Shown: positions 46,631 through 50,426 of the stretch, one piece after another
Layout: every line of letters starts with the position of its first letter
Numbering within the stretch: the first letter of the stretch is position 1
Assembly: GCA_024278835.1 (NCBI GenBank)
Contig: JAJRSK010000016.1
Coordinates: 1 to 50,426 of the forward strand
Direction: 5' to 3'
DNA from: Campylobacterales bacterium
Lineage (GTDB): Bacteria > Campylobacterota > Campylobacteria > Campylobacterales > QNZT01
DNA length: 50,426 bases
Position numbers and translations under genes: made by a program
The notes under the pieces: generated by a model
Seen by the model: the letters and a program-made list of their open reading frames with translations, nothing else
Database searches by the model: none
What the model was told of the DNA's origin: nothing

Positions 46631-48180
46631 GATAACCCCTCCTTCTTCACAATAGTATCCTTCTCAAAAACCGCATCCATATCGGGAAAATCCTCACGAT
46701 AGTGCGCCCCCCGACTCTCTTTTCGCTTCAATGCACTCTCTGCTATCATGATACCAAGCAAGAGGCTATTTCTAAACTTGATAAATTCCACTAGATTGGT
46801 GTTATAGACTCGACTATGGTCTGTGATACCCATCATCGAAAGTTTGTCTTTTAACTCTTCAAGCGTTGATAATAGACTTTTAAGCGCGCTTTCATTTCGT
46901 ACGATGCCCGCATTTTTATAAAAAAGTTTTCCTAAATCATCTCTTTGTTCATAAAAATCTACGCTATTTTCAGCGTTATAGATATCTTCGATGAAGCTAT
47001 CATGATGTTCTCTCTCTATCATGATACGCGCACTTTGTGCAAATTTCGCTGCATTTTCTCCTGCTAGTCTACCAAAGGCTACTATCTCTAGGAGGGAATT
47101 TCCACCAAGCCGATTTGCCCCATGCACACGGGCATTGGAGCACTCACCCACAGCGAACAACCCCGAAACTGTACTCATCAAGTTTTCATCGACAGCAATC
47201 CCACCCATACTATAGTGTGCTACAGGAGCTATAGGCATCTTCTCTTTGACAGGATCTACCCCCTCATACATGATGGATAATTTTCGCTCTTGGGGAATAC
47301 TCTCATCGATAAACGCTTCACCCAGATGACGAATATCCAAAAAGACTTCCCCACCCCTCTCTATCTCAGCCCAGATAGCACGACTCACCTCATCGCGTGG
47401 CTTTAACTCATCGACAAAACGCTCACCCCTCTCATTGACCAAATGCCCACCAGCACCCCGTGCACTCTCCGATATCAACACCCCTGACTTTCGTAGTCCC
47501 GTGGGATGAAACTACACAAACTCCATATTTGAGATATCTGCTCCGGCATGATGTGCTATCATGATACCATCACCCGTAGATTGGCTCGTATTGGTCGTAA
47601 AACCATGGTAAATTCCCGCATAGCCACCTGTTGCCATAACGATAGATTTTGCCTCTATCATGATAGTCTCGGTGGTTTTGATATCAAGAAACGATGCACC
47701 CTCTTTGGAGAGTTCTAACAGATAATGCTCATTTAAAAAAGCTATCTCTTCTTTTAAGCACTGGTCATACAGGGTATGCAGGATTTTTAATCCCGTATAA
47801 TCTTGCGAATAACAGGCTCGTTTACTAGCTGTCCCACCTAAACGACGCTGAGCAATCTTTCCCTCATCTGTACGCGAAAAAGGAACACCAATGGCATTTA
47901 ACCATGCTAAAGTATCAGGCGCCTTCTTGCACATCTTCTCTATCATGATAGAAGATGCTAGCCCCTTAGAAGAGCGTAACGTATCTTCTATATGCAAATC
48001 CACGGAATCTTCTTGTTCATTTGCCAAGGCAGCATTTATCCCACCCTGCGCCATACAAGTCTGACTACGGGTTGGAAAGCCTTCTGAAACAACAAGTACA
48101 GAAGCGCCCTCTTTTTTTGCCGACAAAGCCGCCGAAAGTCCAGCCCCTCCACTTCCGATAATCAATACATCATACACCAT
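46627..48180 (-). pseudogene. Succinate dehydrogenase/fumarate reductase flavoprotein, interrupted by TAG
   Basis: One frame of 517 codons runs from 48180 to 46627 with a single TAG at 47514-47512. Before it are the FAD motif LIIGSGGAGLSAALSAKKEGA, RSQTCMAQGGINAAL, ATGGYAGIYHGFTTN and ISNMEFV. After it the frame goes directly on with FHPTGLRKSGVLISESARGAGG, HYSMGGIAVD and RLGGNSLLE. The conserved motif is E-F-V-Q-F-H-P-T, so the stop replaces Gln (CAG to TAG). Family members oxidise succinate or reduce fumarate. Seven TATCATGATA copies are in or at the ends of the gene. AGGGG precedes the ATG; the promoter region touches the repeat element at 48218. Confidence 0.88.
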
Positions 48181-48217
48181 AATTCACCCCTATATCTATC
48201 TTGTATATTCTAACATA

Positions 48218-48384
48218 GGGCACCTCTAATGCCATTAAGTTAACGACTAAAGAAGTAAATTCTTTTGTCTACGCTAACGCTAAGTTCTCTTCAGCAGAGA
48301 GCTCGCGTGCAGATGAACCGCACTTAATCTTTTTTAAAACGCCTAACTTAATGGCATTGATGGACACCTCTAAAAACCCTAGTC
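48218..48384. repeat. Nested inverted-repeat element in the frdA upstream region
   Basis: AATGCCATTAAGTTA (48228-48242) and its exact reverse complement (48344-48358) enclose about 100 bp. The flanks carry AGGGCACCTCTA (48217-48228) on the left and CACCTCTAAAAACCCTAGTC (48365-48384) on the right; the latter matches the 37463 element over 20 bases. The shared CACCTCTA on both sides looks like one element inserted into another. No transposase ORF is inside. Confidence 0.65.
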
Positions 48385-48391
48385 GTTATAA

Positions 48392-48487
48392 CATCACAGA
48401 TAAGTTTTTGTGTGAGGCACTTACTTGCAGGACTAGCCGTAGCTAATTCAAAAGTAAGTAACGAAGCACAAGGACTTATCTGTGATG
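48392..48487 (+). repeat. 96-bp hairpin element
   Basis: CATCACAGATAAGTTTTTGTG (48392-48412) pairs with CACAAGGACTTATCTGTGATG (48467-48487); the only two departures are T:G, which would be G-U pairs in RNA. ACTTACTT (48419-48426) and AAGTAAGT (48452-48459) extend the stem inside. It could be a MITE, a structured RNA or a terminator remnant. Confidence 0.6.
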
Positions 48488-48560
48488 CCCATAAACTAAA
48501 GAAAAATCATTATTGTACGATATAGGCAAAGATACAAAACTCACACAAGAAAGGGTCAAC

Positions 48561-48917
48561 ATGCTTTCCAAATTCTCCATAAAAAAGAAACTATTTTTTG
48601 TAAATAGTGTTATCTTAATCATAGGTGTACTAGGTATCATTACGACAATATCAACAATGCAGTCAAACACTAAAGCGATTATGCAATTTAAACATATGTT
48701 GGTACTTTCTCAAAAACTATCTTTAATGGTACATGAAACACAAAAAGAGAGAGGTGCTAGTGCAGGATTCATTGGTTCAAAAGGGGAAAAATTCATACAA
48801 GAACTCCCCAAACAGCGCTTACTTACAGATAAACGTATAACAGAATACCATGACTATGTAAAGACACTTTCACCTGAGTATAAGGACCAGCATGGAACAA
48901 AAACTACAAACTTATAA
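48561..48917 (+). pseudogene. N-terminal fragment of a NIT-domain chemoreceptor
   Basis: The ATG at 48561 has AAAGGG upstream. The first residues (MLSKFSIKKKLFFVNSVILIIGVLGIITTIST) are a typical chemoreceptor TM1. They are followed by LSQKLSLMVHETQKERGASAGFIGSKG, the start of a nitrate/nitrite-sensing (NIT) domain. After about residue 110 (TLSPEYK, near 48885) the sequence loses similarity and ends at a stop at 48917; HAMP and signalling domains are absent. The base composition also changes at this point, so an insertion most likely cut the gene here. Confidence 0.75.
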
Positions 48918-50316
48918 TAATGATTTGCAAGTTCAAGAAATAAAACTTGATAAGGCTATACAAAAGTTTTTAGAAAGACAAAATTATGAACATTATGATA
49001 TACAAAAAGTAGATATTGAGACAAATGAAGATATAGACTTTATAAAAATATCCCATATTTCTTATGATAGAAATCAATCTCAAGCAGATTTAAATTTAAT
49101 AGATTTCCAACAATTACTTAGTGCAGTAGCTTCAAAATCAAAAAAATTTGTTTATATGATTGAAAGTTCTTCTGATGGAATTGATTTGTATATAGGTACT
49201 ACAAAAGAGCCTGATAATAATACTTTTTTAAAAGATACTTTTGAAGGTATATATTCAGGTTCTACTCTATTGGATGACAAAAAAAGAGAACCTTTTTTAA
49301 ATAATATGAAACACTCTAAAGCAATGCTTGGTATTCCTGCTTTGAAGAGAGATTCTGATAAAGAGTATAAACAGTCCTTGGAAAAGATTTTATTTCCAAT
49401 GCAGGGAAAAACTTTTCGTATAGTTTTAGTTGCCCAAAGTTATGATTTAAGTACGATTCAAGATATAATTTCAAATTATCAAACTCTCGGTAGTGAATTA
49501 CATAGATTTGTCAAACAAAGCAGAAATGAACAAGAAAGTCATGCTGATTCTCAAGGTATTACTTTAACAGAAGGTTCAAGTATTAGTAATACCAAGGGAG
49601 AAAGTCAAAGTCAAACATCTAGTACAAGTACATCATCTTCAGACTCAACAACCCATACTTCAAGTGGATTTAGAGCAATCTTTGAAAAAACACCTTTTAC
49701 TTCAAATAGAACTTCAACAACTTCAACAAGCTCTTCTGAAAGTAACTCTAAAACAACTTCTACTAATCAATCACGAACTAATTCTACAAATGAAAGTACA
49801 AGTTCAAATAAGAATAATACAAAAACAGACACACTTGGAATAACATTCGATGAGATAAACAAATCAGCAGAGTATTGTGAAAATCTTATAGATACATATA
49901 TAGAAAGGTTTCAAAAAGGTTTAAACCATGGTATGTGGAATTCATCTTTGTATATTCAAGCAGAAAATGAATCAGTATTGTCAGAGTTAGAACATACTTT
50001 AAAAAGTGTTTATAGTGGCGATGAATCTTATTATGAATCAATTCGCTTTAGTAAAAATATGATAGAAAATAAAGATATTAAGATAGAAAAATTACCAATG
50101 CTTTATTTTGATAAAGATATAAAGCACCCCGTACATCCATCATTTGTCGGTTTTTCATCAGCACTTAATACAGAAGAACTTTCTATTTTATCAGCATTAC
50201 CAAATAATGATGTGGAGGGATTAAGTGTATCTAAAATTTCTAGTTTTGGATTAACTCAATCAAAAAATATTGATAAGTATAAATCTATAATGTCCCTAGA
50301 AAAAATAACCAAATAA
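48892..50316 (+). pseudogene. Truncated HerA/TraC-like ATPase, N-terminal part only
   Basis: The 474 residues are richer in A+T than neighbours and start within the broken chemoreceptor, with AAGGA 6 nt before the ATG. Residues 1-215 form a mixed domain, 219-312 are a Ser/Thr/Asn-rich linker (SQSQTSSTSTSSS, NQSRTNSTNESTSS), and 313-474 a second domain ending LSVSKISSFGL...KSIMSLEKITK. In related large ATPases of defence or transfer islands, a Ser-rich linker precedes this region and a P-loop (G-x-T-G-S-G-K-S) follows just after a L-x-x-H-like strand. Here the stop comes exactly there, 58 bp before an IS3-type transposase start. That the ATPase domain was lost to this insertion is inference. 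Confidence 0.5.
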
Positions 50317-50374
50317 TAAAAAAATATTATTCCTAAAATGATAAAATCATAGACAGTTAGATTGGAGAAATATA

Positions 50375-50426
50375 ATGAGCAGAAAAAGAACAACATATAC
50401 AGCAGATTTCAAAGCTAAAATAGTAC
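50375..50426 (+). mobile_element. Start of an IS3-type transposase (OrfA), cut by window end
   Basis: ATG at 50375 begins MSRKRTTYTADFKAKIV, the usual N-terminus of IS3-family OrfA (HTH_Tnp_1). GGAG lies 8 nt upstream. The rest lies outside the window. Its left inverted repeat was not identified in the 58 bp before it. Confidence 0.75.

Follow-up and report, generated by a model that had tools for sequence, protein, structure and literature searches.

A truncated HerA-type ATPase gene inside a chemoreceptor gene of a Campylobacterales bacterium, probable remnant of a mobile conflict cassette

ATPases of the HerA/FtsK type are hexameric translocases of DNA or protein. Bacterial dynamins remodel or repair membranes and are often paired in operons. 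Paired dynamin-like GTPases are the common feature of the dynamin defence candidates LeoA/LeoBC (as modelled in PADLOC) and of DLP1/DLP2 of Campylobacter jejuni; to our knowledge, LeoABC was defined without a HerA ATPase, a nuclease or an immunity gene. The C. jejuni dynamin pair studied was cytosolic (PMC6104087). DynA of Bacillus subtilis is cited in PMC13335696 as contributing to phage resistance. Polymorphic toxins typically feature LHH nucleases and immunity proteins of the SUKH type, and FtsK/HerA ATPases drive the export of T7SS toxins (PMC3482391).

We analysed the right end of a window of 50,426 nucleotides (the whole stretch of DNA under study) from a Campylobacterales bacterium. Judged by its homologues, a fragment of a foreign HerA-superfamily ATPase gene is located here within a chemoreceptor gene. 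The features are as follows.

48561 to 48878, plus strand: 5' part of a gene for a NIT-type methyl-accepting chemotaxis protein (MCP), 106 codons covering the first membrane segment and the start of the NIT sensor
48879 to 48891, plus strand: left junction, with the ribosome-binding site AAGGA at 48882-48886, 5 bases before the ATG (from sequence comparison)
48892 to 50285, plus strand: pseudogene stub, the 5' 464 codons of a HerA/DUF87-type ATPase gene, with 67-72% identity to the N-terminal halves of homologues
50286 to 50316, plus strand: tail of the same open reading frame (ORF) encoded by an insertion sequence (IS), non-native coding that is common to other IS copies
50286 to 50426, plus strand: left end of an IS3-family element, with the terminal TATAATGTCCC..., the OrfA start at 50375 and MSRKRTTYTADFKAKIV; contig C28 ends inside it

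To the left of the locus, frdA and frdB (fumarate reductase) occupy the minus strand up to 48180, followed by an intergenic stretch up to the receptor start at 48561. Only the first 46 of the 239 positions of the Pfam NIT model were matched by the receptor part (4.6e-11), whose residues 1-106 aligned (46%) with residues 21-126 of an intact NIT receptor encoded elsewhere in the genome (contig C65). An earlier reading of the DNA alone (the sequence-only reading) had seen receptor similarity lost at about 48885; the NIT-type receptor gene is really cut, and we measured the end of similarity at about 48878, close to that value. The AAGGA before the stub ATG is placed as in the closest homologue (L013). 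The same reading had noticed a change in base composition at the junction, and this was borne out: the stub has 28.1% GC, lower than every sampled 1,394-bp stretch of positions 1-48500 (minimum 30.3, mean 39.0, sd 3.1).

The ORF at 48892-50316 was confirmed and encodes 474 amino acids. Only 464 of its codons are native, because seven IS copies in the genome share their left-end sequence from position 50286 (TATAATGTCCCTAG...) onward, inside the ORF; the IS supplies the last ten residues. The stub, the first 40% of the gene, comprises the N-terminal domain, the Ser/Thr-rich linker and the region up to the P-loop, the P-loop itself excluded. A Pfam search of the stub alone gave no match, DUF87 included. 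It is the full-length homologues, HerA/DUF87 ATPases of ~1,100 amino acids where intact, that place the gene in the HerA superfamily, as the sequence-only reading had supposed for a large foreign gene with a Ser/Thr-rich linker: they contain DUF87 at 454-724 (PF01935, 2e-9, above the cut-off) with Walker A and B. Identity of the stub to the N-terminal halves of the ATPases of L010 (1,093 aa) and L009 (1,103 aa) was 67-72%. With L009 it was 72% over the shared part, and the stub aligned up to residue 463, whereas the Walker A motif GITGSGKS of L009 is at residue 495. The gene therefore stops, as had been proposed, where a P-loop would be expected, ~31 residues short of it. ATPase relatives were found at eight loci in other Campylobacterota; seven extend beyond the cut, with frames of 944-1,184 aa, where the frame of L014 ends at a contig end and those of L012 and L016 are not open from the expected start. 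When the structure of a full-length homologue was predicted from a 7-row alignment, the mean pLDDT was 52.

With a ribosome-binding site, a start and a stop codon, the 474-residue ORF has the signals of a complete, naturally short gene. However, its last ten residues are shared with other IS sites, and in place of homologues ending naturally at 474 residues, which would have spoken for such a gene, we found homologues that run through the P-loop and beyond. There is practically no chance that the ORF is a short gene of this kind, and the IS boundary rules it out.

The sequence-only reading had placed the end of the gene 58 bp before an IS3-type transposase. This figure holds for the start codon of the transposase (50375), but the IS itself begins at 50286, inside the ORF. 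The right end of the IS, TTGACAAATGGG(G/A)ACATTATA, had eight matches in the genome (TTGACAAATGGGGACATTATA), seven leading into unique sequence and the eighth lying within another IS copy; on the left side, seven flanks are known. A related element in L073 starts with TATAATGTCCCC and ends with GGGGACATAATA, with a transposase frame in between, and IS3-type transposase frames are present in L032 and L073. Judged by the criterion of an OrfA/OrfB transposase with terminal inverted repeats, the element belongs to the IS3 family; the genome's own copies show both ends, seen separately. Another copy of the same IS (contigs C67/C64) interrupts a Fic-domain-like gene, with AAA at both flanks.

When the full-length homologue was searched against the 2.5-Mb assembly (77 contigs), the stub alone was found, serving as positive control; a query with the dynamin partner, run without a positive control, found nothing. 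Since no part of the assembly contains the ATPase remainder, the module does not extend further in this genome. The sequence-only reading had suggested that a defence or transfer module may continue past the window and that nuclease genes be sought further right. A nuclease gene does follow the ATPase in relatives, but in this genome the sequence that follows the IS most probably represents the 3' half of the receptor. Behind an IS right end, from base 142, contig C13 carries the TM2-HAMP-signalling part of a receptor, an ORF corresponding at 55% to residues 333-678 of the same C65 receptor to which the window part aligned at residues 21-126. None of the other IS left flanks fetched matched the C65 receptor. 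By this comparison, the C13 sequence is most likely the 3' half of the window's own chemoreceptor gene.

Because one right flank among the seven left and seven right flanks is a chemoreceptor 3' half, the order of the locus is most likely MCP 5' part, ATPase stub, IS, MCP 3' part, resulting from island insertion and IS-linked deletion. The joint between C28, the IS and C13 is one that we infer, because the assembly breaks at IS copies. These breaks would also suit a case without any deletion, in which the IS merely splits an intact gene whose other half lies in an assembly gap; yet seven IS flanks were found on either side and the remainder is in no contig, which makes this improbable. The target-site duplication did not match at the window's presumed IS junctions (ATC left, AAG right). 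The mismatch fits an IS-linked deletion and equally recombination between IS copies. Target-site duplications pair cleanly only the copy in the Fic gene (C67 with C64), so that they leave the partner of the window's IS undecided.

With insertion and deletion as the preferred reading, the cassette would have inserted into the NIT receptor gene and the IS would then have landed in the ATPase gene. The DNA lost by an IS-linked deletion would begin at ATPase codon 465 and reach roughly codon 310 of the receptor, counted from the start codon in the window, and ~207 receptor codons would have gone with the remaining part of the island. Positions 48892-50285 very probably represent the lead gene of a mobile conflict cassette, reduced to a dead 5' stub. 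As the stub is devoid of a P-loop, it can have no ATPase activity, and nothing of the cassette mechanism proposed below can function in this organism. Here the stub is useful mainly as a record of the arrival and removal of an island around an IS.

In the close relatives within the Campylobacterota, the gene order is ATPase, small nuclease, usually an immunity-type gene, and a dynamin-like GTPase (~700-880 aa). A small protein with a hydrophobic stretch, as judged by eye, is usually present too, and a second dynamin-like GTPase is frequent. Nuclease and dynamin genes come after the ATPase in L009, L010, L011, L012, L014, L015, L016, L110, L111, L113 and L114. A divergent branch (L116, L120 and L121) has the dynamin upstream, in the order dynamin, unknown gene, ATPase, nuclease, immunity gene. 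The L011 dynamin pair matched Cj-DLP1 and Cj-DLP2 (5owv) at 1e-45 and 6e-39, and the dynamins of L009 are of another type, closest to the CrfC and DynA models. Neither nuclease nor dynamin was seen alongside the ATPase in a third branch (L117-L119, L122-L124 and L031), which indicates that the ATPase also works in other settings. Neighbours in this third branch are small Gly/Ser/Ala-rich hydrophobic proteins (cluster F7), a protein of ~160-430 aa (F6) and, in some cases, a long protein (F10). A gene of the HP0729 family was found near the ATPase in both branches (L009, L014, L015, L110, L111, L116, L117, L123 and L124). It may mark an insertion hotspot or be a member of the system; we counted these genes as neighbours and not as cassette parts.

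The nucleases are short (173-280 aa) and of different types. Pfam assigned LHH in L009, L011, L113 and L114, WHH/colicin DNase in L010, L012 and L015, and weakly NERD in L110; it assigned no domain to those of L016 and L111, which by our own reading of their sequences appear REase-like. Immunity-type genes encode SUKH proteins in L009 and L010 and DUF6985 in L012, the remaining loci being assigned by clustering; none was seen beside the nuclease in L016/L112, L111 and L011. Over residues 1-65 the nucleases of L014 (LHH) and L110 (NERD-like) shared 77% identity (E 8e-30), and BLAST showed no similarity beyond; those of L014 and L010 (WHH) were 62% identical over the first 61 residues. The ATPases in these comparisons were 78% identical. 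This pattern indicates that the C-terminal nuclease has been exchanged on a constant frame.

How does this cassette compare with described systems? With HerA-NurA and other HerA defence systems (PADLOC HerA models; NF040819 and NF042943) the ATPase shares the central DUF87 domain, the Walker A motif GITGSGKS and the Walker B region IEEAHRLL, but it has in addition a long N-terminal domain and the Ser/Thr-rich linker. In the NCBIfam HerA models (NF040819/NF042943) it scored 26-57 bits against cut-offs of 800-970. No NurA or Sir2 partner was seen by the ATPase loci, where the partners are nuclease, immunity and dynamin genes. Given scores far under the cut-off and the lack of these partners, we found no support for membership of the HerA-NurA/HerA anti-phage group. 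The best NCBIfam match was NF033849 ('serine-rich protein', ser_rich_anae_1), which covers the linker and the ATPase region with 101-165 bits, below its cut-off of 650 bits; this model carries no function. The best PADLOC match of the ATPase was mad8 of MADS (4e-19). MADS is likewise unsupported, since in the neighbours tested the ATPase was accompanied only by a weak mad8 match of one dynamin.

On the whole cassette, PADLOC recognized mainly HerA-like, mad8-like and Leo-like pieces. Its Leo models matched in L011 (LeoBC, 6e-18) and weakly in Lactococcus (LeoA/LeoBC), Treponema and Escherichia coli (LeoA), and gave no match to the larger dynamin of L009. In the C. jejuni dynamin operon, a gene for an HcpA-like beta-lactamase stands in place of the cassette partners (PMC6104087). 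With polymorphic toxin systems (Tox-LHH/WHH with Imm-SUKH) the cassette has in common swapped C-terminal nuclease domains behind a constant N-terminus, as seen from the L014, L110 and L010 comparisons and domain assignments, and neighbouring immunity genes: in most loci SUKH or DUF6985 stands by the LHH or WHH nuclease, as its putative neutralizer. It differs in that the nucleases are short and tied to the ATPase and usually to dynamins, and domain searches recognized no known trafficking domain in them.

At a threshold of 1e-20, the ATPase was present in 19 of 397 sampled genomes of the phylum (the window's own included) and in 13 of 69 genera, a patchy distribution of the kind that mobile genes would show. 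On plasmids of E. coli, Lactococcus and Treponema, the set begins with two dynamins and one or two hypothetical genes, after which come the ATPase, an HNH nuclease and finally an immunity-type gene; in Exiguobacterium the order is ATPase, HNH nuclease, SUKH. The nuclease is of the LHH type in E. coli and of the WHH/colicin type in Lactococcus, Treponema and Exiguobacterium. WYL-type regulators stand beside several cassette loci, often in the plasmid versions. In Rhodococcus, Streptomyces, Ruminococcus, Photobacterium and Planktothrix, plasmid relatives of the ATPase had no annotated nuclease-dynamin neighbours. A near-identity DNA search for the E. coli plasmid cassette in 5,426 E. coli genomes returned only the source plasmid, and phage records gave only two distant, unannotated ATPase matches.

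Several ATPase relatives are on conjugative or mobilisable plasmids. Together with membership of the HerA-FtsK superfamily, this would suit a TraC/VirB4-like function in DNA transfer or plasmid maintenance, with the nuclease and dynamin neighbours as mere passengers, and the sequence-only reading had considered a TraC-like ATPase of a conjugative island. Against this, the same gene set, with nuclease, immunity and dynamin genes as neighbours, occurs in Campylobacterota contigs in which no mating-pair genes were recognized, and no VirB4/TraC family was among the Pfam, PADLOC and NCBIfam matches. We consider a transfer or maintenance function quite improbable and found no support for assignment to conjugative VirB4/TraC.

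From the gene content we infer a role of the intact cassette in conflict or defence. The HerA-like ATPase and the dynamin-like GTPases would form a membrane-associated machine, which would hold or load the small nuclease by docking of its conserved N-terminus on the ATPase. The dynamins would bring the complex to a stressed membrane, where phage DNA enters. Upon invasion or membrane damage the nuclease would act on DNA, and otherwise the neighbouring immunity protein would restrain it. We give this predicted mechanism a little less than even credence. That the intact relatives represent an undescribed anti-invader system across phyla, in which a HerA-like ATPase and dynamins at the membrane deploy an exchangeable nuclease kept in check by its cognate immunity protein, in effect a defence armed with polymorphic toxins, is a possibility that we put forward with more doubt.

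The same genes could serve the delivery of toxins from cell to cell, with the ATPase as export motor, the nuclease as polymorphic cargo and the immunity protein protecting kin. C-terminal swapping with paired immunity genes is a hallmark of polymorphic toxins, among which LHH nucleases and SUKH are listed, and T7SS export is driven by FtsK/HerA ATPases (PMC3482391). However, neither the toxin nor its neighbours showed a recognizable secretion apparatus, WXG/LXG or repeat domain, the C. jejuni dynamin pair is cytosolic (PMC6104087), and the WYL regulators and the location on plasmids are at least as compatible with defence. Delivery appears unlikely to us; we prefer the mechanism above and leave the remaining credence to other roles.

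Every component of the cassette is already known singly. The combination of a HerA-like ATPase, dynamins, a nuclease and an immunity gene is apparently undescribed, as no description was found in the open-access literature (one may exist elsewhere), and there is a fair chance that the cassette is a distinct system. The relatives unite bacterial dynamins, HerA-like ATPases and polymorphic nuclease-immunity pairs, usually studied apart, in one mobile cassette that spans Campylobacterota, E. coli, Lactococcus and Treponema. If it is a system of defence or antagonism, many bacterial dynamin pairs would gain a testable role.

Three minor observations concern the DNA to the left of the receptor. The frdA gene has an in-frame TAG at 47512-47514 on the minus strand (EFV*FHPTGL) where a glutamine codon is expected, either a nonsense mutation or a sequencing error. 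Two adjoining dispersed hairpin elements, at 48226-48362 (137 bases) and 48362-48492 (131 bases), had fold z-scores of -5.2 and -7.1; both have several copies elsewhere in the genome (93-98% identity) and diverged copies in related genomes, and are MITE- or REP-like. The palindrome TATCATGATA occurs at 46 sites in the window, from 1772 to 47941 (0.13 expected), with some sites within coding sequence, none in 48000-50426 and 11 in contig C13, and resembles over-represented genomic palindromes of the HIP1 type.
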